Assembly (NCBI RefSeq): GCF_020144665.1
Contig: NZ_JAAHBQ010000032.1
Location: forward strand, 1-59,990
Direction of reading: 5' to 3'
Source of the DNA: Oscillatoria salina IIICB1
GTDB lineage: Bacteria; Cyanobacteriota; Cyanobacteriia; Cyanobacteriales; SIO1D9
Length of the DNA stretch: 59,990 nt
The position numbers and the translations under genes are program-made. Below are positions 2,929 through 25,891 of the stretch, piece after piece. A model generated the notes under the pieces. It was not told where the DNA came from, did not search any database, and worked only from the letters and a program-made list of their open reading frames with translations. The number at the start of each line of letters is the position of its first letter. Within the stretch, counting starts at the first letter, position 1.

Positions 2929-5900
2929 CTAAAATGGAGTTGCTCCAGCAAAAGTGAAGTCATTTTCAGTTAAGGTATTAGCTTCAACTCCGAGTAACTC
3001 AGCAAGTTGAGTATTTTCCTCAAGGGAGGAGATATCTGCGCCAAGAGTAATTAATGTATCAGACTCCTGTTGGATTAGGCTGAGATCGGCAAACGTGAGG
3101 TCTGGAAAACCACCTAAGCCAATTACATCTTCTCCCGATGTGAAGTCAGTAATAATATTGGCACTGGTTGGGATTTCAGCGTTTGCAATCCAGAACTGGT
3201 CAGCACCAGAGCCACCTGTCATCACATTGTCGCCACCAACCAGAGCAAAGAAGCGATCGCTGCCGTCACCGCCAATTAAACGGTCATTCCTGCCAAGGAG
3301 AAAGTCATCATTGCCATCTCCGCCATAGAGCCGATTATTACCATTGCCTTCAGTTGCGTCCAGGGTATCATTGCCCGTCCCACCAAAGAGGCGATCGCCA
3401 CTTCCCGCCAACAGTTCATCATTGCCATCTCCACCATAGAGCCGATTATTGCCATTGCCTTCAGTTGCGTCCAGGGTATCATTGCCAATCCCACCGAAGA
3501 GGCGATCGCCACTTCCCGCCAACAGTTCATCGCGATCGCTGCCAGCATAAATCCGATTTCCCCCAGTCGCGACGGAAGCAAAGACTTGATCCTCTCCAGC
3601 CCCCGTAAAGACGAGATTCTTTTCACCGTCAAAGTTCAAACCCGCTTTGAGGATATCTGGCTCTGGACTACCAAAAATGAGTTTATCCAAAAAGGAGTTT
3701 TGATTGATAGAAATCGACAACTCAGTGGTGAAGATTTCTCCAGTAGAGTCAGTAGCTGTGAGGATGACTTCATAATTTCCACCCGTATTCTCTGCGGGAA
3801 TTCCTGATAAGATTCCAGACTGAGTGACGATAAGCCCCTCTGGTAAATTTTCTGCTGAGTAAGTAATTTCATCACTGATAGAAATATCGACAAAGTTAGC
3901 ACTTAAATCTTGAGTAATATTTTGGTTTTGAAGGATAACAATATCTTCAATCTCTTGCGTTTGAATAATTGTTTTTTCGCCGTCTCCGATTTGGTCGATA
4001 ATTGCTGGAAAATCGACATAATATTTTTCTTTGAAGTTGCCAATCGTTGTCAGCAAATCATCAGGAGGTGTGTTATTGGCAAGTTCTTCTAATTGCTGAT
4101 TTGCTTGAGCAAATAATTGGGAAGCTGCTTCAAAAACAGTAGTAATATCTATTTGATTTTCTAAATGTTCTAGCAAGGGTAATGTTTCTAACCGATCGAG
4201 AATCTTATCTTGGACTTCTAGGGGATTCGTTAAATCGAGTGCAGATAATTCCCCAATTAAATTACTAACTGTTTCAACCACTCGCTGACTACTTTCTGAG
4301 TCAGTTGTAAGATTATCGATTAAATCAACAGAGAGTTTTAATAACCCTGCCACCTTAACATGATTGAGATAAACCTCTTTGGCGACTTCATCACCAGTCG
4401 CTATTGTTAATAATGGGTCATAATTAAATAAATCAATATCTTCAGGTAAGTTGAAAACTTGTTTGATTTGATTTTGGGCAGCTTCAATCGAGATTCCCTT
4501 TTCGACTAAAATCGTAGCTAAAGTGGTCAAAGGAGTCGCAACAGAAGCATCACTAAGGGTAAAGAACGGAATTTCAATCGGTAAACCGCTAGAAGTATCT
4601 ATCCCGTCAGTAAAGACTAAACGCCCTTCTTCGCTATCAATTTCACCATTATCGTTGCTATCAAAAATATTAAAGGGAATCTCTAAGTTATAACTCCCAT
4701 CTTCATTGGTAATAGTATTAGGTTCGTTGCTATCAAGGATGCCGTTAAAATTAGCGTCTAAATAAACTGTAGCATTGTCCAAATAACCTTGAGAGGCTTT
4801 ACCACCAATATCAATATTGCCACCAACATTCCATATCGGAAAAGTGGCTAAGTCAATATCAAGAATCGTCTCCATCACCTCGTAAAAGCCAACATCCACA
4901 CCGACTTTCACTTCAGCATTTAAAAATGCTTCTATTTCTCCACTAACTTCAACACCAACTTCTGAATTTTCCTGAAACCCACCAAAGTCATTTTCAATCA
5001 CTTCTAAGAAGCGAATTACACCATCATTCGTCCCACTGTTTTCGCCATTATCAATAAAATCAACTTTGATATCACCATCGCTTTGTACACCTCCAGTCAT
5101 CTTCGCCTTAGCGACAACAAGATTATTTTCAAAACCAATTCCCACCCCAAAGCTACCGCCTAATTCGTTAACATCTTCTCCATCTTCATTAAAATCTCTG
5201 AGATAGAATCCATCTAAAGTTCTGATTGAGTTATCGTCTGAAAATCCTAGTTCTTTCCATTGCGCTAATCCAGCAGTATCATAACCAAAATAGAGGTTAG
5301 AATTTAAGCCCAAATCAAATTCTAAAACCGCATTTAATCCCCAATCTGGTAATAAAGCGTCTAAACCGATTTCAGTGACATCAAAATTGACATCAAAATC
5401 AGCATCAGGAAAATCATAAATTAATAAGTCTGTGTTTTTTCCTAATAATAAATCTTGGGCAACAATTTCTGGGGTTTGTAATATAGGAATCGATAAACCT
5501 GGAGTATTATAGACAGCATTAATGAAGTCAACAGTGGGTTGTAGATTCTCTTCTTCAGTTTGGTCAACTTGGTCAATTACTGCATCGGGTTCACGGATAA
5601 AATTAGCAACAGCATCATCGTCTTCTAAACTAGCCGCATTGATTGTAATTTCATAGCTTCCTAAATCTATGGCGTAAGTTTCGACAACTTTGCCATCATC
5701 TTCTGTATCTTCATCTATTTTTTTACTGTCGTAATAGTTGAGACTATAACTATCAACGGCTTCTCCACCTAATCTAACTAAATTAATTAAATACTCAAGG
5801 TTATCCAAAAACTCAAATAAGTTATCTGCTTCTCCACTTCCCCCTGCCAATTTGAAAGCTAATTCTGCTAAAGAAACTTCGCCATCATCATTATAGTCAT

Positions 5901-8900
5901 AGAGTGAGTCTAACTCTAAATAACTGAGGAATTTTGTATCAGTATTGAAAGTATCGATGATGGGGTATATGGGCTGTAGTTGATTGTCAATTTGGTCTAA
6001 GTATTTAACAAAGTAGTTAGAAACATAAGTTCCTAAATCTAACTCTAAGTCATTAATCTCAACAATAAACTCACTTTCATCAGCAGCAGAAACAGTTTCA
6101 TCGGCATAATTAAAGAGAGGGAAATCAACATATAAATCAAAATTGAATGTCGGGAAATAAATACTTCTATCTAAACTCCCGATGGCTGATAGTCCTAACG
6201 CTGCATCTCCGATTAAGTCATAATTGGTATATTCTTCAAAGAAGGTCTGAGTATCAGTTTCCGCCGTCACAGAAATTAAGGCTAATTCTTCTTGACTGAG
6301 TTGTCCATCATTATCAAAGTTTTCATCAGTAAGCGTAACTGTACCGTCTAGATTTAAGACACTCTCAGTATCAGGATCATCTTCAAAATCAACTTTAACA
6401 AAACCGAGACTACCGCTTCCTTCTAACTCTTCTAATTCGAGATCGACATCGAGATCATAAATCGTGTTTTCAGTATCAAGATAAAACGTACCATCTTTAC
6501 CCAAGCTAAAGACTAAAGTGCCATCATAACTAATATCACCGACGACAGTTCCCTCATAACTCATCCCTAATGCAGACATTCCCAAATCATCAGCAACATC
6601 AAAGGTAACGTCTTCATAAGATTCGCTAACGGTAACGGTGAAAGTGGTGTCTATATCGGTTACTTCTATATCAAGCGATACACCATACTCAGCGAGTATA
6701 TCTAATAAGATTTGTTGTAATTCCCAAGCGGTTAATTGACTGGTGGTTTGTATTCTTTCAATTAAATCATCGTTAAATAATTCGATAAAGTCTGGTACAA
6801 CCCCTTCTAATTGACCTAATATGGGGATGCTAAATTTATCTTGAGCTTTTTGGATGGCATTTAAGGCAGATTCTAAACCTTTATAGGTATTTTCTGTATC
6901 TAACAGTCTGTCTTGAACGTAGATAATTTGAGGGTCAATGGTTAACTCATTATAGTCATCATCATTACTACTCAATTGATATTCAAGGGTACTCAGATGA
7001 AAATCATTGGCTTCGATAATGTTTTCATCAATTGCTGTTATCTCGATTGACTGTAATTGATACCAATTATCTGGGGTGAAATTTAAACTAGAAACGCCTT
7101 CGATTTCGCTATCTGTCGTAAAGTCAAGGGTAACATCATCAGTGGGTTGACTCAGTAAAGAAATTTCGATCGTTGCAGCTTCCCCTTCAGTTACTTGAGT
7201 ACGATCGCCTTTTTGGACTATTCTTAATCCAGGGGTATCATTGTCAATGATTTCTAAAATTGCTTCACTACCCCGATCCTCAATATCGTAAGTTTCCCCT
7301 GTGGAGAGTTGAATAACGATATTTTCACCAGCGACTCTTGTCGTGTCAGTGGTGGAAATATTATTCCCATTTTCTAAAGTAACGGCTACGGCTGTAGAAT
7401 CAGAATTACTGAGATTTGTCTCTGCGGTTAAGGTGGCAACAACACCATTACTAAATGTTAACTCACTTGCTGCGGGTATAGTATAACTGCTAATATCTTC
7501 ATCATCAATAATTAAACTGATTTCACTTGTATCAGAATCATAAGCAGTAGTAACAAGAAGATCAAATCCTTCTACTAAGTAATCATCAATCGGTTGAATA
7601 AATAAATTACTGGTGTCACTTCCGGCGGGAATATAAATTAAACCTGTTTCAAGGATTTCTTGATAGTCATCACCGTTACCTGCGGTACTTCTATCCGTTG
7701 CAATTTGATAACCGATTGCCAAACCGCGATCGCCATCATTATTATTGGGAGTGGGTTCACTTAAGGTAATCGTAAAATAGCCAGGGGAGGCTTCTTCTTC
7801 CACCCCATCACCCACAGCAATATTAACGGTAGGTTTGTCATTATCGAGGATTGAAACTTCTAGATTTTCCGGCGGGGTAACTTCATCGTAAGTTGCATCT
7901 TCCTCGCTATTCACCGTAAATTCTATTGCGGCGGTATGATTATATTCGATGTCATAATCATCTTCGGCATTAACAACAACTCTTTGCGGATCGTTCCAAT
8001 TATTTTCATCAAAGGTAAGCTTGAGAAAGATACCCGCTTCTCGATCATTTAAAGCAATTTGACTCTCAGGAGTCATCATCACCGCTACTTCTCCAAGGGG
8101 TTGAGTTGCTAATTCAACGGAGTAAGTAAATTCATCAATAGAATTAACGATGACTTGCGCCGTATCGCTATCATCTTGATTGGTTATATTAATGACTTGA
8201 GTTGAAATATCATCATAAAAGTCATCTTCACTGACGACATTGGTGACGATTTGGTAATTGATATCCCCATCTTCTATAACATCATCGACTGAAGCTAAAA
8301 TGACTTCCTGAGTTTGATTCCAATTATCTTGTGTAAAGTAAAGCGTATCGAGATTTAAAATTCCTTCGCTTTCATCGTTACTGTTGATATAGACAATAAT
8401 TGTGTCAGTGGGTTGAGTGGCTAAAGAGAGAAAGAAACTTTGGGTAGAAGCGTTATTTTCAGCAGTGGTGAAATTATCAGTATCAGTGATTTGGTTGCCG
8501 TCTGAGTCAGTAATAATTATCTGTGGCGTGTCATTATCTAATAGGGTGATTGTAGCGCTAATATTTTCTTCGCCATCTAAATAATAGCCACTATTGGTAT
8601 TTAAAGTGACTGTGATGGTTTCATCATTTTCAGCGATGTTATCTGCAATGGGATAAACTTCTATAATTGCACTGTCGCTTCCTTCTTGGATCGTAATTTC
8701 GTTATTCGTGAAGTTTTGATAGTATAAAACTCTTCCGCGAACTTCGCCAAAAAAGGCATCCAAATCGCCATCATCATCAATATCCCCAAATGCTGGCATC
8801 GCATTTTTGCCGATGTCTGTGACTGTTTCGCCTTCCGTATCGACAAATAAATTGGCAATGCCTGTTTGTTCAACATAATTCGCTTCAACAGAATTACCAG

Positions 8901-11900
8901 TATTGTTGTAATAGGCGATCGCGCCTTCGGCATTGCCAATGAAAGCATCAAAGTCATTATCTTCGTCGATGTCGATAAAACCGAGGGAAGCGCGATCGCC
9001 TACATCCAAGCCGTCAAAGGGATTATTGCTACCTGTGGTTAGGGTAAAGCTAGGGGATGATTCATCGCCTGTATTTTGATAGAAAATGATTTCTCCGTCT
9101 TCGTTACCGATGAAGAGATCGCGATCGCCATCGCTATCAATGTCAACGAAACTGGGGACATTATACCCCCCAACATCAACTCCATCGAGAGGATTATTAG
9201 TTGCCAAAGTAAAGGTAGCGGAGGCGTTATCTCCTGTATTTTGGTAGTAAACAATCTCTCCTTCCGCATTCCCAACGAAAGCATCAAAGTCACCATCATT
9301 ATCAATGTCAGTCAACGCGATCGCGCTGTAACTTCCCACATCAAATTCACTGAGGGGATTATCATCACCGATTTCTTCTTCAAAATTAGCGACACCTGCT
9401 AACCCAGTATCTTCTATCGAATAGTTCTTAAAATATTCAATTGTCCCAGAAGAACTACCGATAAAAGCATCTAAATCACCGTCGTTATCAATATCAACTA
9501 AAGATAAATTACTAAAAGTACCAACATCGACACTATTGAAGGGATTTTCTGATCCCACTTGTTCTACAAACCACTCCAAAGGTTGATAATCAACTCCCGA
9601 TGTCGCAGTAGAGTTCAAAACAGAATATCGAACTGTTAACCCTCCTTCTGGGGCAACTTCTCCATCTTCAAGACTAACTAATAATTGGGCTGGTGTATCT
9701 TCATCATCTTCTGCGATTTCACGTTCACCCACCACACTAAGGGTTACTAATAAACTATCTTCATCTTCAGTGGGTGAGTCGTCAGTCACTTGATTATCGT
9801 TGATATCTTCATTCGTAATGGTCAGAGATTGACTCAAATCTTGGTAATTTGGATCGTCACTGCTTGCGGTGAAGTTGATGCTATAAGTAATATTTCCATC
9901 GCTTCTTTCGTCATCAAGACCCGTAATATTTATCTCTTGATCTACATTCCAATTATCTGGAGTGAACGTCAAACTGGTAGGAGAAAATTCGTTTTCACTA
10001 TCATCAATTGTGGATTCTAATAAACTAATAGTGACATCATTTGTTGGTTGGCTATTGAGTCTCAAGCGAATTGTTTCACCTGCTTGACCTTCAACCGTCA
10101 CAATCGAATCAATTTCTTGAGTATAAACACTTGTCGCGATCGGAACTTCTATCGTTTGATTATCATAATTGCTGTCATCACTAGCCGTTGCAATATCAAC
10201 TTGATAATTAAATTCACTGCTATCGGAATTTTGCGTCAGAGTTTCTAAGATTGGATTTTGAGACGTATCCCAATCATCGACAGTGAAAGTTAAAGAAACG
10301 GAATCAGTATCTTCATTTAAGCTATCAGTTAAATTGACAGTAACCGGATCGCTCGGCTGACTCGCTAATTTAACATCAAATACAGCGTTGCCATTTTCGT
10401 CAATTGAAAGTAACTGAATGTCTAATAATGATCGATCGTCAGGATTAATACTACTAAGAAAAGATTGAGTAAAGATATTAATTTCAGCAGTGTCATTATC
10501 AATAATAGTTAACGTTGAACTTTGCGAGTCACTATCTAATTCATAATTGTCACCCGCATTAAGCGTAACCGTAATTGTTTCATCCTCTTCGACCGTATTA
10601 TCCTCAATTTGATTAACACCAATAATACCTGATGTTGCCCCTGCTTTGATGATTATTTCTCCGCTTAATGTTTCATAATCATAGTTATCTTCATTCTCAT
10701 CTTGAGACGTAGCAGTACCAGAAACTTGATAAGTTATCGTTAAGTCAACCTCGGCAGGATCGTCTAAAGTAAGGCGAAATCCCTCAACTTGATTATCATT
10801 TTCTTGTACTTCCCCTAATGACGATACGCTAACAACAGGATTAAAAGTTGGTGATTGATTATCTTCTCCTTCCTTTACCTTTAATTCAGTGATGGTATTA
10901 TCCGCAAGGGTAATATTTGTATCTAAACTTAAACCATCATAGTCGTCATCATCGCTACTCAAATTAGCAGTAATTACAGAATTTTGTTTAATATTCGTGA
11001 CTTCTACAACATAAGAATTTGACCATTCTTCAGGAGAAATTGTCAAAGTATCAGAGGATAATACTCCATTTCCATCTAAGGATAAATTAATCGTAACGGT
11101 ATCCGTCGGTTGGCTAGTTAGTTTATAAGTCAGTGACGCTTTTTGATCCTTTAATGATGAGTCAGGTTTAACGGCGTAATCGTATAGAGAAACATCATCA
11201 ATAATGCCCTGAAAATAAAATCCTTCATCATTACGACTATCATCATTACTGAATCTCGTATCGTCATTCATTTGGGCAATACCAATATCCGCAGCATGAC
11301 GCTCAATCCTGTCAAAATCTAAGTTGATACTCCCAATATTTTCCCCATTCACATAACCGTTGAGAATTCCATTATCGAAAGTGAGAATAGGATGATAAAT
11401 CTCTCCTTCTTCCACAGAAAAGTTGAGCCATTCTCCCTCGTCGTTGACCCAAACACCTAAATTTAATTGACTCTCATCCAAAAAGATGTTGATGCCATTA
11501 AGTGTACCGCCCTCCTCATAAATAACTTGTTTTCCGTCTAAGTTATTTGCCTGGAACCATAATTCAATTGTCCGTTCAGAATAAGAATTTCCTGTGTTAA
11601 TTGCATCATTATCAGGAATAAAAATACCATCGTCAACGCCATCAAATTCGACGGCAGTATCACTATTATTGGCTAAACCAGAAACGCCTAAAGTGGGATT
11701 ATTTTGATAAGTTCCATCTACATCACTCCCTAGACTGCCTTCATTAACTGCGACATCTCCTGATGTTTCTCCTAAACTCCAAAAGGCAATTGGATCGTTT
11801 ATTTCTACTGCGTAATCGTATAGATATACATCATCAATAATGCCCTGAAAATAAAATCCTTCACCATTACGACTATCATCATTACTGAATCTCGTATCGT

Positions 11901-14658
11901 CATTCATTTGGGCAATACCAATATCAGCAGCATGACGCTCAATACTGTCAAAATCTAAGTTGATACTCCCAATATTTTCCCCATTTACATAACCGTTGAG
12001 AATCCCATTATCGAAAGTGAGAATAGTATGATATATTTCTCCTTCTTCCACAGAAAAGTTGAGCCATTCTCCCTCATCGTTGACCCAAACACCTAAATTT
12101 AATTGACTCTCATCCAAAAAGATGTTGATGCCATTAAGTGTACCGCCTTCCTCATAAATAACTTGTTTTCCACCGAAGTTATTTGGCTGAAACCATAATT
12201 CAATTGTTCGTTCAGGATAAGAGTCACCCGTATTAATTGCGTCATTATCAGGAATAAAAATACCATCGTCAACGCCATCAAATTCGACGGCAGTATCACT
12301 ATTATTGGCTAAACCAGAAACACCTAAAGTGGGATTATTTTGATAAGTTCCATCTACATTATTCCCCAGACTGCCCTGATTAACGGCGACATCTCCTGAT
12401 GTTTCTCCTAAACTCCAAAAAGTGATAAAGCCATTTTCGGTTGTAATTACTCCTTCATCTAAATAAATATTATCTGCATCAAAGATAGCTAAACCTGTCG
12501 TATAATTTTCACTATCGCTGATTTCTACAGTTGCATTCAAAGTTGAATTTCCATCCGTTAAGCCATAGGCAAAATCGTCGATAAATTCATCTTCAAAGGT
12601 ATAAAATTCTATTTCAATATTTTCTGTCTCTTCGACAATAGCATCAGGTAAAGCAGTAATGTAGAGTTGCGCTGTGGTGGCATTTTGAGGAATAAAGACA
12701 GAATTTTCCGCGTCTGATTCGGCAGTCAAGCGAGATTGAGAACTATAATAGTCTTGATTGAAAGTAGCGGTAGAATTATCTAAAATTCTGTATTTAACTC
12801 TGATACCTGCTTCATTCTCGACAGGGTTATCTAATTCTAATTCGAGATAACCAATGTCATTTTCTGTGGGATTAACAATCTCGCCGATGCTAACAATTGG
12901 TTCATTATCTTCTAGAGTCAGAGTGGCAGAAGCAGAACTATCGCTAACATTATAATCATCACCACTTTCAAGGTTGATGATAACCGTTTCCTCAGATTCA
13001 AAAAGGGTATCGTTGAGAGGTTCAACGTATAAAGCTAACGATTCAGCATCATCAGTAATCGGGAAATTAGTGTCATTATCATCTAAATACTGTTTTTCAC
13101 CATTAGCTAAATAGTAAAGTTGATAATCAATACCTCTTTCTGCTGTACCCTCAGCACTAAAATTTAATTCAATTGTGTCTTGAGGTGTATCTGTAATGAT
13201 TTCAAACTGACCATCAATTCCTGTTTCTGAGGGGTTTGTAATTGCGCTAATGCCGATATAATCTTTAATGGTAAAATCAACCGTATCTCCATTATGAATG
13301 TAACCGTCATTATCTGTTAGAGTAATGGTTAAAGTTTCTTGTTGTTCGTAAATATCATCATTTTCAATATTAAAAGAAATGGTCTGACTATCCTGACCTT
13401 GACTAAAGTCAATTTCCCCAGATAAACCGCTATAGTCTGAGCTACTGACTCCACTAATACTATAGGTAACTGTGATATCTTCTGGGGCTTCTCTGTCTAA
13501 ACTGACGGTAAAACTTTTGCTTGTGCCTTCTAGATCGGAAGTGGAGGAAATACCAGAAATTTCTGCGGTCACTAAGTTGTTTGACCACCAAGAAATATTG
13601 TCATCATCGAAAGATGCTGAGGCAATATCTAAATAACCATCGTTGTTAAAGTCTTGGACAAAGACGCTAATACCATCAAAATTACTGGCAATTGTGTTTC
13701 TACTGCTGAAATTGCCACTGCCGTCATTCTGCCACCAGGCAACTTGATTTGCATCTCGTGCAGCACCAATAATATCTAAATCGCCATCTTTGTCTAAATC
13801 TGCTGCGGTGATTTCCCAAACGCCATTGAAGTTACTGTCAATATTGCTTTGACGACTAAAATTACCACTACCGTTATTTTTCCACCAGGCGATATCATCA
13901 AGAGAGCCACTAGCACTAGCAACAAGATCATTATCGCCATCGTTATCGAGATCGACAGCAATTACATCTGTCGCATCATCAAAGTCACTAACAATGTTGC
14001 GATCGCCCCAACTACTGCCATTCCCTTCATTTTCCCACCAAGAAATATGTGCATTATTTTCCTCTTGGGCAGCCGCAACAACATCCTTATCACCATCACC
14101 GTCTAAATCAGCAGCATATACCGCGATCGCTTCTTCCATGCTGCCATCAATGGTTATTTCCCCCTGAAAATTATTGCGAGAAGTTTGTCTCCAAACGGCA
14201 ATATCTTGGTCGTCTTCTGAAGCACCAATAATATCAACAAAACCATCACTGCCTAAATCGGTAACGAAAAGACCAGACGCGCCTCTAAATCCGCCAGAGA
14301 TTCTCTCATCATCCCAAGATGTTCCTGACCCGTTGTTATAGAAAACAAAGACATTATCATCATCATTAGAAGTGCTAACGATATCTTCGTCACCATCATT
14401 ATCGAGATCGGCAACATAAACACTTCCTACCGGAAAATCTTGATCGACCTGTAAATCACCATAGACTAATGAATAGCTCCAATTATTGCCATTATTGCTA
14501 TTTTTCAAAATAAAGACATCATCTTGACCAAAAGCCGAAGTAATTCCAACGAGATCGATGTCTCCATCTCCGTCAAAGTCTCCTCCGTAAATATCTGCGA
14601 GATCATCAAGACCTGAATTCGTAATACTGGTTTGGTAAGAGAAATTGAAATTAGTCAT
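2929..14658 (-). CDS. Giant multidomain calcium-binding RTX protein (FG-GAP, Calx-beta, LamG)
   Basis: About 3,909 residues, probably an exported surface or matrix protein. Domains in order: about seven FG-GAP/VCBS repeats (residues ~10-370, motifs such as DFDGDGDIDLVG); Calx-beta domains; two near-identical LamG/concanavalin-type modules (~747-950 and ~959-1162); more Calx-beta domains; a second block of five FG-GAP repeats (~1700-1985); further Calx-beta units; a ~1,000-residue non-repetitive region from ~2580 with Asp-rich EF-hand-like loops; a putative Ig/cadherin-like domain (~3570-3650); and C-terminal RTX repeats (GGxGNDxLD type) with an acidic tail. There is no Sec signal. RTX proteins with such C-termini normally leave by type I secretion, but no transporter gene is in this window. 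I chose ATG 14658 (MTNFNFSY), where the first FG-GAP repeat begins; ATG 14721 would add 21 unrelated residues. It may be transcribed with the two genes downstream. Confidence 0.88.
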   Translation of the reverse strand: MTNFNFSYQTSITNSGLDDLADIYGGDFDGDGDIDLVGITSAFGQDDVFILKNSNNGNNWSYSLVYGDLQVDQDFPVGSVYVADLDNDGDEDIVSTSNDDDNVFVFYNNGSGTSWDDERISGGFRGASGLFVTDLGSDGFVDIIGASEDDQDIAVWRQTSRNNFQGEITIDGSMEEAIAVYAADLDGDGDKDVVAAAQEENNAHISWWENEGNGSSWGDRNIVSDFDDATDVIAVDLDNDGDNDLVASASGSLDDIAWWKNNGSGNFSRQSNIDSNFNGVWEITAADLDKDGDLDIIGAARDANQVAWWQNDGSGNFSSRNTIASNFDGISVFVQDFNNDGYLDIASASFDDDNISWWSNNLVTAEISGISSTSDLEGTSKSFTVSLDREAPEDITVTYSISGVSSSDYSGLSGEIDFSQGQDSQTISFNIENDDIYEQQETLTITLTDNDGYIHNGDTVDFTIKDYIGISAITNPSETGIDGQFEIITDTPQDTIELNFSAEGTAERGIDYQLYYLANGEKQYLDDNDTNFPITDDAESLALYVEPLNDTLFESEETVIINLESGDDYNVSDSSASATLTLEDNEPIVSIGEIVNPTENDIGYLELELDNPVENEAGIRVKYRILDNSTATFNQDYYSSQSRLTAESDAENSVFIPQNATTAQLYITALPDAIVEETENIEIEFYTFEDEFIDDFAYGLTDGNSTLNATVEISDSENYTTGLAIFDADNIYLDEGVITTENGFITFWSLGETSGDVAVNQGSLGNNVDGTYQNNPTLGVSGLANNSDTAVEFDGVDDGIFIPDNDAINTGDSYPERTIELWFQPNNFGGKQVIYEEGGTLNGINIFLDESQLNLGVWVNDEGEWLNFSVEEGEIYHTILTFDNGILNGYVNGENIGSINLDFDSIERHAADIGIAQMNDDTRFSNDDSRNGEGFYFQGIIDDVYLYDYAVEINDPIAFWSLGETSGDVAVNEGSLGSDVDGTYQNNPTLGVSGLANNSDTAVEFDGVDDGIFIPDNDAINTGNSYSERTIELWFQANNLDGKQVIYEEGGTLNGINIFLDESQLNLGVWVNDEGEWLNFSVEEGEIYHPILTFDNGILNGYVNGENIGSINLDFDRIERHAADIGIAQMNDDTRFSNDDSRNDEGFYFQGIIDDVSLYDYAVKPDSSLKDQKASLTYKLTSQPTDTVTINLSLDGNGVLSSDTLTISPEEWSNSYVVEVTNIKQNSVITANLSSDDDDYDGLSLDTNITLADNTITELKVKEGEDNQSPTFNPVVSVSSLGEVQENDNQVEGFRLTLDDPAEVDLTITYQVSGTATSQDENEDNYDYETLSGEIIIKAGATSGIIGVNQIEDNTVEEDETITVTLNAGDNYELDSDSQSSTLTIIDNDTAEINIFTQSFLSSINPDDRSLLDIQLLSIDENGNAVFDVKLASQPSDPVTVNLTDSLNEDTDSVSLTFTVDDWDTSQNPILETLTQNSDSSEFNYQVDIATASDDSNYDNQTIEVPIATSVYTQEIDSIVTVEGQAGETIRLRLNSQPTNDVTISLLESTIDDSENEFSPTSLTFTPDNWNVDQEINITGLDDERSDGNITYSINFTASSDDPNYQDLSQSLTITNEDINDNQVTDDSPTEDEDSLLVTLSVVGEREIAEDDEDTPAQLLVSLEDGEVAPEGGLTVRYSVLNSTATSGVDYQPLEWFVEQVGSENPFNSVDVGTFSNLSLVDIDNDGDLDAFIGSSSGTIEYFKNYSIEDTGLAGVANFEEEIGDDNPLSEFDVGSYSAIALTDIDNDGDFDAFVGNAEGEIVYYQNTGDNASATFTLATNNPLDGVDVGGYNVPSFVDIDSDGDRDLFIGNEDGEIIFYQNTGDESSPSFTLTTGSNNPFDGLDVGDRASLGFIDIDEDNDFDAFIGNAEGAIAYYNNTGNSVEANYVEQTGIANLFVDTEGETVTDIGKNAMPAFGDIDDDGDLDAFFGEVRGRVLYYQNFTNNEITIQEGSDSAIIEVYPIADNIAENDETITVTLNTNSGYYLDGEENISATITLLDNDTPQIIITDSDGNQITDTDNFTTAENNASTQSFFLSLATQPTDTIIVYINSNDESEGILNLDTLYFTQDNWNQTQEVILASVDDVIEDGDINYQIVTNVVSEDDFYDDISTQVINITNQDDSDTAQVIVNSIDEFTYSVELATQPLGEVAVMMTPESQIALNDREAGIFLKLTFDENNWNDPQRVVVNAEDDYDIEYNHTAAIEFTVNSEEDATYDEVTPPENLEVSILDNDKPTVNIAVGDGVEEEASPGYFTITLSEPTPNNNDGDRGLAIGYQIATDRSTAGNGDDYQEILETGLIYIPAGSDTSNLFIQPIDDYLVEGFDLLVTTAYDSDTSEISLIIDDEDISSYTIPAASELTFSNGVVATLTAETNLSNSDSTAVAVTLENGNNISTTDTTRVAGENIVIQLSTGETYDIEDRGSEAILEIIDNDTPGLRIVQKGDRTQVTEGEAATIEISLLSQPTDDVTLDFTTDSEIEGVSSLNFTPDNWYQLQSIEITAIDENIIEANDFHLSTLEYQLSSNDDDYNELTIDPQIIYVQDRLLDTENTYKGLESALNAIQKAQDKFSIPILGQLEGVVPDFIELFNDDLIERIQTTSQLTAWELQQILLDILAEYGVSLDIEVTDIDTTFTVTVSESYEDVTFDVADDLGMSALGMSYEGTVVGDISYDGTLVFSLGKDGTFYLDTENTIYDLDVDLELEELEGSGSLGFVKVDFEDDPDTESVLNLDGTVTLTDENFDNDGQLSQEELALISVTAETDTQTFFEEYTNYDLIGDAALGLSAIGSLDRSIYFPTFNFDLYVDFPLFNYADETVSAADESEFIVEINDLELDLGTYVSNYFVKYLDQIDNQLQPIYPIIDTFNTDTKFLSYLELDSLYDYNDDGEVSLAELAFKLAGGSGEADNLFEFLDNLEYLINLVRLGGEAVDSYSLNYYDSKKIDEDTEDDGKVVETYAIDLGSYEITINAASLEDDDAVANFIREPDAVIDQVDQTEEENLQPTVDFINAVYNTPGLSIPILQTPEIVAQDLLLGKNTDLLIYDFPDADFDVNFDVTEIGLDALLPDWGLNAVLEFDLGLNSNLYFGYDTAGLAQWKELGFSDDNSIRTLDGFYLRDFNEDGEDVNELGGSFGVGIGFENNLVVAKAKMTGGVQSDGDIKVDFIDNGENSGTNDGVIRFLEVIENDFGGFQENSEVGVEVSGEIEAFLNAEVKVGVDVGFYEVMETILDIDLATFPIWNVGGNIDIGGKASQGYLDNATVYLDANFNGILDSNEPNTITNEDGSYNLEIPFNIFDSNDNGEIDSEEGRLVFTDGIDTSSGLPIEIPFFTLSDASVATPLTTLATILVEKGISIEAAQNQIKQVFNLPEDIDLFNYDPLLTIATGDEVAKEVYLNHVKVAGLLKLSVDLIDNLTTDSESSQRVVETVSNLIGELSALDLTNPLEVQDKILDRLETLPLLEHLENQIDITTVFEAASQLFAQANQQLEELANNTPPDDLLTTIGNFKEKYYVDFPAIIDQIGDGEKTIIQTQEIEDIVILQNQNITQDLSANFVDISISDEITYSAENLPEGLIVTQSGILSGIPAENTGGNYEVILTATDSTGEIFTTELSISINQNSFLDKLIFGSPEPDILKAGLNFDGEKNLVFTGAGEDQVFASVATGGNRIYAGSDRDELLAGSGDRLFGGIGNDTLDATEGNGNNRLYGGDGNDELLAGSGDRLFGGTGNDTLDATEGNGNNRLYGGDGNDDFLLGRNDRLIGGDGSDRFFALVGGDNVMTGGSGADQFWIANAEIPTSANIITDFTSGEDVIGLGGFPDLTFADLSLIQQESDTLITLGADISSLEENTQLAELLGVEANTLTENDFTFAGATPF
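11170..12420 (-). repeat. In-frame 636-bp tandem duplication of the LamG module
   Basis: The segment encoding the LamG-type module occurs twice, offset by exactly 636 bp (212 codons), inside the giant gene. Copy one begins at the FWSLGETSGDVAVN motif near 12420 and copy two at the same motif near 11784. They differ at only a small number of codons (for example Ser/Arg in FDSIERH versus FDRIERH), which points to a recent duplication or ongoing gene conversion. Confidence 0.93.
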
Positions 14659-14916
14659 TTCTTTGTGGGGAAGATCTGATTGCAGTATTGCAATTATCGT
14701 CAGTTTCCGAGTGCCTGTCATTACCGGAATAGGAAATTTGACCGTAAACTTTTGTCAAGAAAAGGGCTGTTGTAGAGGCTTAGATCGCTCTTTAGGTCAG
14801 GATTACAGCGTCAATTATTTAATAGTAATCAGAGAAATTAAAGGGTTTAACTTTCTTCTGTCAGACTGGGGTTAAACCTTGATTTTTCGTAGGCTATAAT
14901 GGCGCAAATTCGTAAA

Positions 14917-21824: not shown

Positions 21825-22139
21825 TTAACGTAAGTTTGGGATAAAAAACAGGGAGAGAGTAAACTTGATTGGGCTCAAATCCATTCAGGCAATCTCTCCC
21901 TATCTCCAGTGGAAACTGAAGTATCTTATTGAGATCGGCTAAGCGTGGCTTAAAGCAATAGAAGATCGGACATACAGAGATTAATCCTCAAAAATATCTA
22001 TTCGCGTAAGCACTGAACAGTGTAGCGATCGCTTAATCATCAAAACATAGATGCGCTCGGCATTTGACAAAGGTATCAATCTTTTCGGTTTGTCCAAAGT
22101 CCAATTAAATCTGAGTCTCTCTCCTCCTGTGGAGATGCT
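21825..22139. other. Intergenic with an 8-bp inverted repeat
   Basis: GGGAGAGA at 21851-21858 is complementary to TCTCTCCC at 21893-21900, across a 34-nt loop and without a following T-run. It may be a structured 3' end of the sigma mRNA. The remainder is the upstream region of rppA and shows no ORF. Confidence 0.4.
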
Positions 22140-22817
22140 ATGAAAATTTTACTCGTTGAAGATGACAAGCATCTCGTACAAGCCCTTGTAGAAGTTTTAA
22201 CTGATAAGCAACACTATACAGTTGATGCTGTTAACGATGGCGGAGTAGGTTGGGAATTTATTGAAGCGACTGTCTATGATTTAATTATCCTCGATCTGAT
22301 GTTACCGACATTAGATGGCATTAGCTTATGTCAAAGATTGCGTCGAAAGGGTTGCCAAACTCCAGTTTTAATGTTAACTGCTAGGGATTTCAGTGGCGAT
22401 CGCGTCCTGGGATTAGATGCGGGAGCAGATGATTATGTGGTCAAACCCTTTGATTTACCAGAATTATTGGCTAGGATTCGCGCCCTTTTAAGACGGGGTA
22501 AGATTAATTTATTACCTGTGTTGACTTGGGGAGCATTATGCCTCGATCCGAGTAATTGTCAGGTCACTTATCAAGGAGAGTTATTATATTTAACCCCTAA
22601 AGAATATAGCTTACTAGAACTATTGTTACGTCAACAGGGAAGATTAATCAGTCGTGAAACCATCATCGATCGCCTGTGGTCATTTGACGATCCTCCTTCA
22701 GAGGCAACAGTAAAAGTTCATCTCAAAGCCTTACGGAGAAAGTTAAAGGCGGTTGGTGCGCCAGCAGATTTTGTGGAGACAGTGTATGGTATGGGGTATC
22801 GGCTTAAACAACTTTAA
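22140..22817 (+). CDS. rppA: OmpR-type response regulator RppA/NrsR-like
   Basis: A 225-residue protein. The receiver domain has the acidic pair in LLVEDDKHL, phosphoacceptor Asp in LIILDLMLP, and the conserved Lys in DDYVVKPFD. The C-terminal OmpR winged helix includes LTPKEYSLLELLLRQ and the wing VETVYGMGYRL. Sequence and gene order match the RppA-RppB (NrsR-NrsS) pair of cyanobacteria, linked to redox signalling of photosystem genes and to nickel response. The ATG follows an upstream TCCTGTGGAGATG context with GGAG close to the start. Confidence 0.88.
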   Translation: MKILLVEDDKHLVQALVEVLTDKQHYTVDAVNDGGVGWEFIEATVYDLIILDLMLPTLDGISLCQRLRRKGCQTPVLMLTARDFSGDRVLGLDAGADDYVVKPFDLPELLARIRALLRRGKINLLPVLTWGALCLDPSNCQVTYQGELLYLTPKEYSLLELLLRQQGRLISRETIIDRLWSFDDPPSEATVKVHLKALRRKLKAVGAPADFVETVYGMGYRLKQL

Positions 22818-24132
22818 AAAAAAGCAACACCTACGATGGCGACTTTTCCTATCTTATTTAACTGTCATGATGGCAATTTTAGGAGGTTCAGCATTAGGAG
22901 TTTATCACTACACTCGTCACAGTCTTTACAAGCAACTAGATCGACGCTTAGAAATCTTAGCTCAAGCTGCTTCTCATAATTTGTTAGCAATTAAAGCAGA
23001 CTATGGAAAACGTCAACAAAATGAAGCCATCGATCGTTCAACCTCTTCCCAGACCCGATGTTATCTCGATCGTGATGGGGATTTAGATATTCCCTGGCAG
23101 CAATTACGTCAGCCCGATCAAGGCGTAGAATGGTTTAATGGTCAAAAACAATTAGTCGGTTATGCGGGGACATTATCAAGTGTATTACCGCCCCAAGCCG
23201 GATGGCAATTTTGGCAACAGGGTGAGGTGAGAGCCTTAACCTTACCTGTTTATAGTTATGGTAATGGGAAAGAGCATCTAGAAGGTTATATTCGTACCAG
23301 TCAAGTCACCCAAGAAATCGAGGCAGTTTTGAATCGTTTGCGTTGGGGATTGGGAATCGGGGGGATTGGCGTTTTAAGTTTAACGGGGTTAGGAGGAATT
23401 TGGTTGACTAGGCAATCCCTACGTCCCATTGAGCAAAGTTTTCAGCAACTTCAACAGTTTACAGCCGATGCTGCCCATGAGTTGCGTAGTCCCTTAGCAG
23501 CCATGAAAACCTCGGTGCAGGTGATGGATTATTATCCTGAGCGAATTCATCCCCAAGATCGTAAAAAGATTAACGCGATCGCGGTGACAACAGATCGCAT
23601 GATTCGCTTAGTGGAAGATTTACTATTATTGGCACGAATGGACACCGTTACCCTTGCCGATCTCCATCAAAGGAAAGTCCTTTCCTTAAGCGAGATTTTA
23701 GAGGATTTGCTGGGACTCTTTCAATCTCAAGCCCAAGACAAAGGAATTAGGCTACAATCATCCTTGCTAGCTAACGTGAAGGTAAAAGGCGATCGCACGC
23801 AATTGACGCAAATTTTTAGAAATTTGCTCGACAATGCCTTACAATACACACCTTCAGGGGGACAAGTCACGCTTACCCTGACAGTTGAACGAGAGAGTGT
23901 CATCGTTACGGTAGAGGATACAGGAATTGGCATTGCTCGAGAACATCTTCCCTTAATTTTCAATCGCCTCTGGAGAGCCGATAAAGCGCGATCTCGACAA
24001 TCAGGGGGGATGGGACTAGGACTTGCCATTACTCAAGCTTTAGTCGAGCATCATCAAGGAGACATTTCAGTCAGGAGTCAACTAGCGGTTGGGACTTGCT
24101 TTCGAGTCCGCTTACCCCTCGCTGAAAAATAA
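22786..24132 (+). CDS. rppB: Sensor histidine kinase RppB/NrsS-like
   Basis: A 448-residue kinase. One transmembrane helix (~residues 18-38) and a second (~185-205) bracket a ~145-residue periplasmic sensor region. A HisKA domain follows with the phosphoacceptor His in DAAHELRSPLAAM, then an ATPase domain with N-box (NLLDNALQYTPSGG), G1 (VEDTGIGIA) and G2 (GGMGLGLAI). The start is ATG 22786, overlapping rppA by 32 bp, with GGAG 9 nt upstream. This overlap suggests translational coupling. It is the cognate kinase of rppA; the signal is unknown here, but the redox-type lipoproteins downstream suggest metal or redox stress. Confidence 0.87.
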   Translation: MVWGIGLNNFKKKQHLRWRLFLSYLTVMMAILGGSALGVYHYTRHSLYKQLDRRLEILAQAASHNLLAIKADYGKRQQNEAIDRSTSSQTRCYLDRDGDLDIPWQQLRQPDQGVEWFNGQKQLVGYAGTLSSVLPPQAGWQFWQQGEVRALTLPVYSYGNGKEHLEGYIRTSQVTQEIEAVLNRLRWGLGIGGIGVLSLTGLGGIWLTRQSLRPIEQSFQQLQQFTADAAHELRSPLAAMKTSVQVMDYYPERIHPQDRKKINAIAVTTDRMIRLVEDLLLLARMDTVTLADLHQRKVLSLSEILEDLLGLFQSQAQDKGIRLQSSLLANVKVKGDRTQLTQIFRNLLDNALQYTPSGGQVTLTLTVERESVIVTVEDTGIGIAREHLPLIFNRLWRADKARSRQSGGMGLGLAITQALVEHHQGDISVRSQLAVGTCFRVRLPLAEK

Positions 24133-24230
24133 TTTCTCCATCTACCCCAATTTCTACCTCAATCTTGTTTTAACCTATCAAATAGCTTGACTGAGGTCTT
24201 GCATTAATCAACTCTCAAAATATTTAGCAG

Positions 24231-24503
24231 ATGAGTCGTCTTTTTCGCAAATATCATCGTCTTTTGGGGATTATCATCAGCCTTCCCCTTTTGCTCACCA
24301 TTATCACTGGCATAAGTTACAGCATCTTTGATGAACTGTTAGGACAAGGAGAAATTGGTCATTTAATGCTGGAAATTCACACAATGGAAATTATCCATTT
24401 AGAAATCATCTATCCCTTGCTCAATGGGTTAGGACTCTTGGGGTTATTGGTAACGGGTTTAAGCATGACAAACTTCTTCAAAAAGCCACTATCAAAGAGT
24501 TAA
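24231..24503 (+). CDS. Small PepSY-associated-like membrane protein
   Basis: A 90-residue protein with two hydrophobic helices (~residues 11-32 and ~60-80) and an N-terminal RKYHRLLGIIISLPLLLT motif like the first helix of PepSY-associated TM proteins. It lacks the rest of that family, so it is either a mini-version or a shortened relative. It lies 98 bp after rppB on the same strand, and small genes of this kind are found beside rppAB/nrs-type clusters. A regulatory or accessory role for the kinase is inference. Confidence 0.7.
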   Translation: MSRLFRKYHRLLGIIISLPLLLTIITGISYSIFDELLGQGEIGHLMLEIHTMEIIHLEIIYPLLNGLGLLGLLVTGLSMTNFFKKPLSKS

Positions 24504-24580
24504 AAAAACTAAGTTTACTTTTAATCAGTAATCTCTACTCTGCTTGGTAATAAAAGTTTAATTAGGAGGAGATGAATAGT

Positions 24581-25285
24581 ATGATGAGTTCTTTAAAGCT
24601 ATATTCAACAATTAAAAAGACAGGAACTTGGACAATTTTGGCGAGTTTAGCTACCTTGTCTGTTGTTAGTTGTCGGCAGCCTGAAACTCCCCAAGCTAAC
24701 ATTGAATCTTCACCCCTAGAAACTCAAGAAGTTTCCACTCAACCCGATTCTCCAACCTTAGACAATCTTCAAAAAGCTTATAACGGTGAATCTAATGCTC
24801 ATGTGATGTATTTAGCTTTTGCGAACAAAGCTGATGAAGAAGGATACCAGAAACTGGCTAGTCTTTTCCGGGCTGCTGCTAAAGCTGAAGAAATTCATCG
24901 CGATAATCACGCCAAAGTTATCGAAACAATGGGGGCTCTTCCGAAAAACACCATCACCGATCCTCAAGTTAAGTCTACTCCAGAAAACCTAAAAGCAGCT
25001 ATCAAGGGTGAGTCCTACGAGCGGGATACTATGTACCCTGAATTTATTAGTCAAGCTAAGATTGAAAACAATCAAGCTGCGCTACAAACCTTAACCTATG
25101 CTCAGAAAGCTGAAGCCCAACACGCTCAACTTTATACTGAAGCTAAAAATAATCTTGACTCTTGGCGTACCCAGACTGGCCCTTTCTATGTTTGCACAAT
25201 ATCTGGAGAAACTACGATTCAAAAAACTGCTACGGCAGAATGTCCTGCTGTCGAGGAGGGAGAATCTTATTTAGAAGTCAATTAG
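24581..25285 (+). CDS. Lipoprotein rubrerythrin with degenerate rubredoxin tail
   Basis: A 234-residue protein. The signal peptide ends in a lipobox (LSVVSC), so the protein is probably anchored outside the cytoplasm. The four-helix ferritin-like domain keeps diiron ligand motifs GESNAHVMY, AEEIHRDNH, GESYERDTMYPEF and AEAQHAQLY. Rubrerythrins reduce peroxide at this centre. The C-terminal rubredoxin module is damaged: normal CxxC knuckles are replaced by VCTISG and ECPAVEEG, leaving one Cys in each, so a mononuclear iron site is unlikely. I chose the start at 24581: AGGAGG at 24564-24569 is only 2 nt from the ATG at 24572 but 11 nt from this one. It is followed by a Rieske lipoprotein that could supply electrons instead (inference). 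Confidence 0.86.
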   Translation: MMSSLKLYSTIKKTGTWTILASLATLSVVSCRQPETPQANIESSPLETQEVSTQPDSPTLDNLQKAYNGESNAHVMYLAFANKADEEGYQKLASLFRAAAKAEEIHRDNHAKVIETMGALPKNTITDPQVKSTPENLKAAIKGESYERDTMYPEFISQAKIENNQAALQTLTYAQKAEAQHAQLYTEAKNNLDSWRTQTGPFYVCTISGETTIQKTATAECPAVEEGESYLEVN

Positions 25286-25332
25286 AGACTTCTGTGAAAT
25301 TTCAATTGTTAACTCATCAGTTAAATACTTTG

Positions 25333-25764
25333 ATGAAACGCCGTAAATTTATTGGTTTGATTGGGTTAGGAAGTGCTATCTCGTCGATCGTTTCCTCTTG
25401 TCTGCCAAAACAGTCCCAACCTCTTACAAATTCTGTCCGTGCTGATGGTTTTCAGGAAGTAGGGACACTAACCGAGTTGGCAAAGAATGAACAACTTTTC
25501 AAGCAAAACTTAGGAGAAGGAGACACAAAAGCTCTAGTTATTCGCAATCCCAAGAATAATAATCAACTCATTGCCGTGAATCCGACTTGTCCCCATGCAG
25601 GTTGTACGGTGGCGTGGGAGTCAGAGGAAGGGGTGTTTGTCTGTCCTTGTCATCATTCTCAATTTAGCAGTGATGGCGAAGTCTTAGAAGGACCCGCTAC
25701 AGAATCTTTGATTAGTTATCCGATAAGACAGGAAGGGAACTTAATTTTAGTTAAAATTAGCTAG
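25333..25764 (+). CDS. Rieske [2Fe-2S] lipoprotein
   Basis: A 143-residue protein. The N-terminus has a twin-arginine-like RRKFIGLIG followed by a lipobox (IVSSC), which suggests export in folded form by Tat and lipid anchoring. The Rieske motifs CPHAGC and CPCHHSQF supply two Cys and two His for a [2Fe-2S] cluster, and the second Cys of each motif could form the usual disulfide. It is shorter than PetC of the b6f complex and has no transmembrane anchor. The gene starts 47 bp after the rubrerythrin gene, on the same strand, and is followed by a terminator, so the two are probably co-transcribed and co-functional. Confidence 0.87.
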   Translation: MKRRKFIGLIGLGSAISSIVSSCLPKQSQPLTNSVRADGFQEVGTLTELAKNEQLFKQNLGEGDTKALVIRNPKNNNQLIAVNPTCPHAGCTVAWESEEGVFVCPCHHSQFSSDGEVLEGPATESLISYPIRQEGNLILVKIS

Positions 25765-25864
25765 GTTTAGCGACTGGAAATCATCCCCATTTTTAGCCCA
25801 GATTAAAAGAAACTATTCGATGAGCTATTTTCGGTTTAACCCGAACTCAGGTTAACTAGCTAGA

Positions 25865-25891
25865 AAACTGGGTGGTTTGCCCAGTTTTTTT
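25865..25891 (+). terminator. Rho-independent terminator after the Rieske gene
   Basis: The stem AAACTGGG/CCCAGTTT spans a 7-nt loop and runs into a T-tract of seven. It closes the rppAB-rubrerythrin-Rieske cluster and separates it from the convergent peptidoglycan-binding gene. Confidence 0.9.

Follow-up and report, generated by a model that had tools for sequence, protein, structure and literature searches.

A lipobox-bearing cyanobacterial rubrerythrin with two of the four rubredoxin cysteines and its Rieske lipoprotein neighbour

Gene content of the locus

The DNA analysed here (hereafter the window, 59,990 nt of Oscillatoria salina IIICB1) belongs to a genome of about 6 Mb in 163 contigs. 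Five genes follow each other on its + strand and encode, in this order, a response regulator, a histidine kinase, a 90-aa membrane protein, a rubrerythrin and a Rieske protein. The regulator (22140..22817) is of the OmpR type and RppA-like, its best NCBIfam match being NF041734 (223.7 bits, below the cut-off of 250). The RppB-like sensor kinase (22753..24132) is best matched by NF041735 (288.3 bits, below the cut-off of 400), and its real start is probably a little 3' of the TTG at 22753. The next ORF (24231..24503), which the preliminary description of the cluster had overlooked, encodes a PepSY_TM-like membrane protein of 90 aa (PF03929, 18.1 bits, below the cut-off of 28.8). Then come the rubrerythrin, as a 237-aa ORF (24572..25285), and the Rieske lipoprotein (ATG at 25333, stop at 25764). 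For the rubrerythrin, the start proposed earlier, at 24581, is kept as the likely one: on inspection AGGAGGAG (24564..24571, + strand), the likely ribosome-binding sequence, fits the ATG at 24581 better than the one at 24572. A terminator-like stem of 13 pairs with a T run (25862..25890, + strand) is a possible end of the cluster. The promoter and terminator scans gave chance-level results (3 terminator-like sites in the region versus a mean of 3.1 in shuffled sequences), so the terminator scan is not evidence by itself. Elsewhere in the window, the - strand carries a 3930-aa ORF (2929-14721) with repeats that resemble those of the FG-GAP, Calx-beta and RTX types.

The window rubrerythrin scores 87.1 bits against Pfam Rubrerythrin (PF02915, cut-off 22.8) and misses the NCBIfam cut-offs for both nigerythrin (118.1 bits versus 340) and rubrerythrin (88.8 bits versus 200). 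One match to it was found in its own genome at E<=0.001. Nigerythrin is its closest relative of known structure, by sequence (E 4.9e-26); comparison of the fold of its model (49 sequences, mean pLDDT 86.6) likewise put nigerythrin (1yux_B) first, with Z 24.6, an rmsd of 2.0 and 174 aligned positions from residue 59 to residue 236. With the rubrerythrin/nigerythrin group (1yux, 1b71) it shares the diiron ferritin-like domain, all of its ligands and a C-terminal rubredoxin-like fold; it differs from them by an export signal and a lipobox, by the absence of two of the four rubredoxin cysteines and by its scores below the NCBIfam cut-offs. All seven diiron ligands are present, in agreement with what had been noticed at the outset. 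Among the 104 aligned rows (window included), E73, E106, H109, E147, E150 and H184 are identical throughout, and E181 is kept in 99. The other five (L010, L012, L016, L020 and L030) have a longer spacing and, on inspection, a Glu one residue before the E181 position; they match the window query at 33-36% and are taken to be RbrA-like. In the alignment made for structure (A2), a few rows begin inside the domain (such as L122 and L105).

The C-terminal tail of the window protein, YVCTISGETT...ECPAVEEG, contains exactly two cysteines, C208 (codon 25193..25195) and C224 (codon 25241..25243), both on the + strand, and the ferritin domain has none. Each is the sole Cys of its rubredoxin knuckle, as the preliminary description had it, and Ser211 (25202-25204) occupies the second position of the first knuckle. 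The four-Cys FeS4 site of classical rubrerythrin is therefore incomplete. The rubredoxin-like domain itself is still there in the model, where two strands and a helix are retained and the alignment with nigerythrin extends up to residue 236, in contrast to the 'aerobic-type' rubrerythrins discussed below, which lack it.

The identification of the following gene as encoding a Tat-like Rieske lipoprotein was borne out. Its product scores 50.8 bits against Pfam Rieske (PF00355, cut-off 20.3) and displays a Tat-like KRRKFIG motif, a VSSC lipobox and the two-loop ligands CPHAGC...CPCHHS. Its best relative in the PDB is 5cxm (E 5.3e-21), which is the PetC3 protein of Synechocystis according to the available part of PMC10071563; 5cxm scored 78.4 bits versus 52.2 for the best b6f PetC. 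In a tree, 6 PetC rows separate from this Rieske family with a support of 100, on what may be a long branch. The genome contains 13 Rieske-domain matches. It encodes one more Rieske lipoprotein of this family (L141, G000:C75), around which 3.2 kb of sequence showed no rubrerythrin.

Linkage across genomes

In a search for rubrerythrins in 386 genomes of the phylum, 8 close matches (E<=2.2e-60) were separated by a gap from all others (E>=7.1e-20). A Rieske gene was found within flanks of about 1.5 kb at 8/8 of the close loci versus 0/22 of the other rubrerythrin loci examined. The set was widened with a search of the order (388 genomes, 31 with a rubrerythrin match at E<=1e-25) and a scan of named genomes (best 80 of 171 relatives), which gave a total of 37 loci from some 35 cyanobacterial genomes plus 58 other loci. 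The latter belong to Acidobacteria, Verrucomicrobia, Lentisphaerae, Hydrogenedentes, Deltaproteobacteria, Flavobacteria and others; they are non-cyanobacterial in the sense of not being so titled, and several records say only 'bacterium'. A cyanobacterial locus was considered scorable when its rubrerythrin was intact and was followed by 350 bp or more of sequence, which left 32. Five loci were set aside: L032 and L038 because their contigs end, L076 because its rubrerythrin is truncated (a Rieske gene is present), L132 because it has just the second-copy rubrerythrin, with a stop, and what remains of a Rieske gene, and L159 because its rubrerythrin is frameshifted (the search gave no Rieske gene there).

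A Rieske gene lies directly downstream on the same strand at 31 of the 32 scorable loci, i.e. 19/20 with a 2-Cys tail, 11/11 with a 4-Cys tail and 1/1 without tail cysteine; the spacing between the rubrerythrin match and the Rieske frame, taken from stop to stop, is -6 to 336 bp. A match to this Rieske at E<=1e-5 was absent from all 58 other loci in the flanks examined (at least 350 bp downstream for 55 of them, at least 2 kb for 50). The conserved pairing of rubrerythrin and Rieske is real, which bears out the observation made in the first description of the pair.

The exception among the scorable loci is L043 (Nostoc sp. KVJ20), where an intact 2-Cys rubrerythrin is kept and only the stretch of about 590 bp that carries the Rieske gene in the near relative L045 is missing. 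Another Rieske gene of the same family is present elsewhere in that genome. Outside the cyanobacterial set, L090, a deltaproteobacterial MAG (rubrerythrin at 6001-6534), has the same 1+1 Cys pattern (C..GG, CPGG) and no Rieske of the family in the 6 kb upstream and 0.8 kb downstream that were examined. The same Cys loss without a Rieske neighbour, which the preliminary description had named as the finding that would speak against a replacement, was thus encountered once inside the 2-Cys clade (L043) and once outside it (L090, with 0.8 kb of downstream sequence).

A few particular arrangements were seen. At L039 (7508-8134), L040 (7499-8131), L146 (5848-5213) and L156 (3478-2843; here with a Rieske remnant) a second, diverged rubrerythrin comes after the Rieske gene. 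These second copies have a membrane-like N-terminus and no lipobox by eye, and in L146 and L156 a stop codon precedes the tail. In L006/L059 and L008/L158 the rubrerythrin gene is flanked by two Rieske genes in the same orientation, one on each side. L048 has a regex-matched 176-aa Rieske-like ORF 4 kb away from its rubrerythrin on the other strand, which is outside the family at E<=1e-5.

N-termini were judged by eye throughout, without a signal-peptide program, and the lipobox regular expressions are crude. By eye, the lipobox announced in the preliminary description reads VVSC in the window rubrerythrin, with C34 (codon 24671-24673) as its Cys. Signal sequences, judged by inspection, are consistent with the location on the outer face that had been put forward. 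N-termini were visible for 45 of the 58 non-cyanobacterial relatives and most look like signal peptides, so export is apparently old in this rubrerythrin branch and no cyanobacterial invention. An RR motif located after the likely start was seen in a single one of the 37 cyanobacterial rubrerythrins, that of L130 (4 Cys); in L126 the motif precedes the Met. On the Rieske side, every one of the 34 linked rows has a Tat-like RR motif. We considered, and rejected, the idea that membrane anchoring co-varies fully between the two proteins: by eye, the rubrerythrins of L071 and L078 have a lipobox that is missing from their Rieske proteins, and in L126 the lipobox is in the Rieske protein and missing from the rubrerythrin. 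Both proteins of L007 and of L130 apparently lack one; in L130 a regex match in the Rieske protein was discounted because its Cys precedes an AET cleavage-like site by a good distance.

The Rieske family extends beyond the rubrerythrin branch. It was found in 69 of 373 genomes of the phylum (E<=1e-20), and among 30 of its loci examined there, 7 had this rubrerythrin nearby and 23 had no match to it within about 1.5 kb, which means that the family has other jobs as well. The rubrerythrin-linked Rieske proteins are clustered in the tree and do not form one clade (9 changes versus a shuffled mean of 22.7); L162 is labelled there as stand-alone, yet it probably represents what lies beyond the contig end of L032. 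The stand-alone genes of L163, L177, L182, L183, L195 and L196 adjoin ORFs of one type, presumably ferredoxin-nitrite/sulfite reductases, and those of L178, L188, L190, L193, L197 and L201 adjoin ORFs of another type, presumably LysR-type regulators.

Kinase homologues are found at most 3 kb upstream and on the same strand at 24 of the 37 cyanobacterial loci (window counted), a linkage which makes shared control plausible. In Synechocystis, RppA reportedly answers to the redox state of plastoquinone via Hik2 and to heavy metals via RppB, and a motif has been published for it (PMC13421787, in the part available). With up to 3 mismatches, this motif is absent from the upstream gaps 21825-22139 and 24133-24571; over the whole window it has 45 matches versus 29.2 expected, a number that 0/100 shuffles reached. 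Control by RppAB in the strict sense, as suggested at the outset, is only a possibility: the two genes each have an RppAB-type best NCBIfam match, with scores below the cut-offs, and the motif is lacking in both upstream gaps.

Shared control is at the core of one alternative to a redox couple, namely that the two proteins simply belong to one regulon answering envelope or metal stress. The Rieske protein would then serve another acceptor, as its stand-alone paralogues must, and the rubrerythrin would be fed elsewhere or act as a ferroxidase or metal scavenger. The 23 of 30 Rieske loci without rubrerythrin match, the kinase linkage, the retention of the rubrerythrin without adjacent Rieske in L043 and the involvement of a PetC3 homologue in cell envelope homeostasis, reported in the accessible part of PMC12341915, all fit with it. 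The Rieske gene is nevertheless linked more tightly (31/32) than the regulators are, and is present even where no regulator or PepSY-like match was seen in the stretch examined (such as L006, L008, L037, L068, L125, L127 and L128). On balance, we hold a mere regulon to be somewhat unlikely.

Loss of cysteines from the rubredoxin-like tail

The tails of the cyanobacterial rubrerythrins fall into three types: 11 have four cysteines, L007 has none, and the 2-Cys type comprises 19 loci with Rieske, L043 without and the two contig-end loci L032 and L038. In the scoring of all rows, L108 appears as 3-Cys only because its contig ends there. The 23 rows used to describe the 2-Cys type include the diverged second copies L039_2 and L040_2, and exclude L038 (2 Cys) and L146_2 (3 Cys). 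In all 23, the invariant tail columns are C208, G212 and C224 only, and the ferritin domain is devoid of Cys. In L007/L050 the rubrerythrin stops short of the rubredoxin domain; by eye, a lipobox Cys is absent from this protein as well as from its Rieske partner.

The rubrerythrin tree was built without the tail, from 137 columns and 101 rows (L038, L055 and L146_2 were left out; L076, L132 and L159 are also absent), and its bootstrap had not settled. The 2-Cys form has a single origin there (23 rows, support 99/95, present in 100% of 200 bootstrap trees). Its sister group is made of L125 and L126 (4 Cys) and L007 (none); this group has a support of 100/93 and is joined to the 2-Cys clade with 96/84. 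The topology indicates that L007 lost its rubredoxin domain separately. The cyanobacterial rows as a whole are not resolved as one clade (2-3 changes over the bootstrap trees, with a weak backbone), which makes more than one recruitment of the Rieske gene possible.

The order of events can be approached from the 4-Cys members. All 11 cyanobacterial 4-Cys loci already have the Rieske gene, so that, most simply, the pairing came before the Cys loss; the simplest history would be Rieske first, followed by at least two losses of the FeS4 site. The preliminary description had the Rieske protein replace the rubredoxin domain. As worded, this part of it is not supported: an order in which Rieske came to replace a lost site was rejected, since the 4-Cys cyanobacterial members are paired in 11/11 cases and the 2-Cys form is one nested origin.

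Reduced tails are also found elsewhere. The fourth Cys is absent from Holophagaceae-type and Flavobacteria-type rows, and the second and fourth from L090, with no Rieske in the flanks examined; Cys loss is therefore not unique to Rieske-linked lineages. These three groups without Rieske are what one would expect if the loss were plain decay of an unneeded site, unrelated to the neighbouring gene. Decay would not, however, spare exactly the first and third Cys in 23/23 2-Cys rows and in separate reduced lineages: outside the 2-Cys clade it is again the fourth, or the second and fourth, that are gone. A rough arithmetic puts the chance of the same pattern at about 1 in 144, if the four lineages are independent and the losses random. 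Plain decay thus appears very unlikely.

The two remaining cysteines could have a role of their own. A FeS4 site cannot be made from two Cys in one chain. Since the compartment would be oxidising, the natural reading is that C208 and C224 are probably joined in a disulfide, by which the former metal site would be stapled into a structural cap. Another proposal is that the remnant binds metal or acts as a two-thiol relay through C208 and C224, with no donor replaced. The invariance of both cysteines and of G212 in 23/23 rows and a domain block predicted with a pLDDT of 80-96 would suit it. It is weakened by the insufficiency of two Cys for an FeS4 site in one chain, by a remaining tail that varies in sequence and length, and by an oxidising compartment that would favour a disulfide; we regard such a metal or thiol function as unlikely.

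A variation on the Rieske side may be related to the loss. The Ser of the CPCHxS motif is present in 19/19 Rieske proteins whose neighbour is a 2-Cys rubrerythrin (counted by eye, for the downstream copy only). Beside 4-Cys or tail-less rubrerythrins (n=12) the position is occupied by Ala in 7 cases and by Ser in 5 (all close relatives). A Ser at this position raises the potential of a Rieske protein, and the switch may therefore be connected to the Cys loss, with few independent events to go by. PetC3 (5cxm) differs from the window Rieske here, with Ala in place of Ser.

A possible external donor for an exported rubrerythrin

The reading we favour, with a probability of about 0.5, is that the cassette encodes an extracytoplasmic peroxide-reducing pair, made of a diiron rubrerythrin and a PetC3-type Rieske donor, in which the FeS4 site was given up and its remnant became a cap stapled by a C208-C224 disulfide. 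The membrane whose outer face carries the pair would probably be the plasma membrane. The Rieske protein would be exported by Tat in the folded state, cluster included, and would supply electrons to the diiron site, which would reduce H2O2 to water. In the window lineage the FeS4 site of the rubrerythrin would have become dispensable, allowing the loss of the second and fourth cysteines, and C208 and C224 would probably form the disulfide that holds the former rubredoxin domain. A possible rationale is that an FeS4 protein exported by Sec needs iron outside the cytoplasm, when a Tat-exported Rieske protein carries its own cluster. Such a pair is supported by the conserved gene order, the retained diiron ligands, the Tat-like motifs of the linked Rieske rows, the three invariant tail columns of the 2-Cys clade, and FeS4 losses that, judged from the tails and the tree, occurred separately at least twice within the Rieske-linked set (the 2-Cys clade and L007). 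Counting against it are L043, which keeps its rubrerythrin without an adjacent Rieske, and L090, with Cys loss and no Rieske in the flank examined, as well as the presence of Rieske beside 4-Cys members though their own relay looks intact, and a Rieske family that is wider than the rubrerythrin and whose linked members do not form one clade.

The 90-aa PepSY_TM-like protein is a candidate reductant for the Rieske protein. It lies less than 300 bp upstream at 14/37 loci and less than 2 kb downstream at 6/37. In 22 rows of its family 14 positions are invariant, among them two His (H9 and H50, 22/22). A PepSY_TM match at E<=0.1 was obtained for 19/22 rows (best 5.2e-07; the window protein is below the cut-off) and a weak cytochrome b561 match for 8/22 (best 0.0022). 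The model has helices at 3-16, 18-36, 40-50 and 60-79. Searched by structure, it had no relative in the PDB at E<=0.001, and the highest Z in VIA was 5.2, with a chain that is unrelated; a profile search of the PDB gave weak matches only (best E 0.054). PepSY_TM heme reductases such as FoxB are characterised by four or more helices with periplasmic PepSY domains, and a chain of 90 aa is too short to accommodate such a domain; H9 and H50 are conserved His that could hold heme, as in those reductases. A dimer of the small protein could, speculatively, mimic the arrangement described in the available part of PMC11334425. This idea is supported by the Nostoc loci L043 and L045, where two PepSY-like units with four His are fused in one chain (2.5 kb upstream, on the opposite strand). 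At L184:997-1944, a PepSY-like ORF is divergent from a Rieske gene, with no rubrerythrin match in the surrounding 3.4 kb. Such proteins are present in 261 of the 388 genomes of the order (E<=1e-8), so that genome-level co-occurrence says little; as heme binding is in addition only putative, the notion of a heme wire stays speculative.

Taken to its end, this notion would make the cluster a minimal transmembrane quinol:peroxide oxidoreductase. A PepSY-like homodimer, each chain of which has two invariant His and so resembles one half of FoxB, would hold two hemes b. Through it, electrons of the quinol pool would cross the membrane and reach the PetC3-type Rieske, and from there the exported, disulfide-stapled rubrerythrin. 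We consider so complete a chain doubtful.

The favoured pair is most likely a variant of a known theme, in which a rubrerythrin receives its electrons from a separate redox protein. In the accessible text of PMC5114695, a neighbouring Fe-S gene (RFO) is proposed to compensate for the missing rubredoxin domain of 'aerobic-type' rubrerythrins. These, with their RFO and DUF3501 genes, likewise have no working rubredoxin site and a separate Fe-S gene adjoining, but they lack the domain, whereas the window protein keeps a Cys-pair remnant and has a Tat-type Rieske as partner; the word 'rieske' is absent from the main text of that paper. The heterocyst rubrerythrin RbrA, as far as PMC6616624 is accessible, is a cyanobacterial peroxidase whose diiron site is reduced by FNR without its FeS4; there too an external donor bypasses the FeS4, in an NADPH/FNR-dependent way that is unlike the Rieske route proposed here.

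Bacterial multicomponent monooxygenases contain Rieske-to-diiron couples. As a precedent, they show that a diiron carboxylate site can take electrons from a Rieske protein, although they are cytosolic oxygenases in an unrelated gene context.

The role of PetC3 is variously described in the partly accessible literature: apparently unrelated to photosynthetic electron transport (PMC9958174), part of photosynthetic and respiratory electron transport (PMC10071563), or within alternative b6f complexes (PMC2190772). The portions of this literature examined name no rubrerythrin partner for PetC3. Among the papers listed in our literature search, which covered few subscription papers, we saw no report of a rubrerythrin-Rieske pairing, none that mentions rubrerythrin and PetC3 together, and none that speaks of an exported rubrerythrin.

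The conserved gene partner makes the job of PetC3 directly testable for one branch of the family, and that branch would gain a physiological partner if the quinol:peroxide chain were true. As for the rubrerythrins, the series of four cysteines, two and none, nearly all beside a Rieske gene, amounts to a natural experiment in which a built-in relay may have been given up for an external one.
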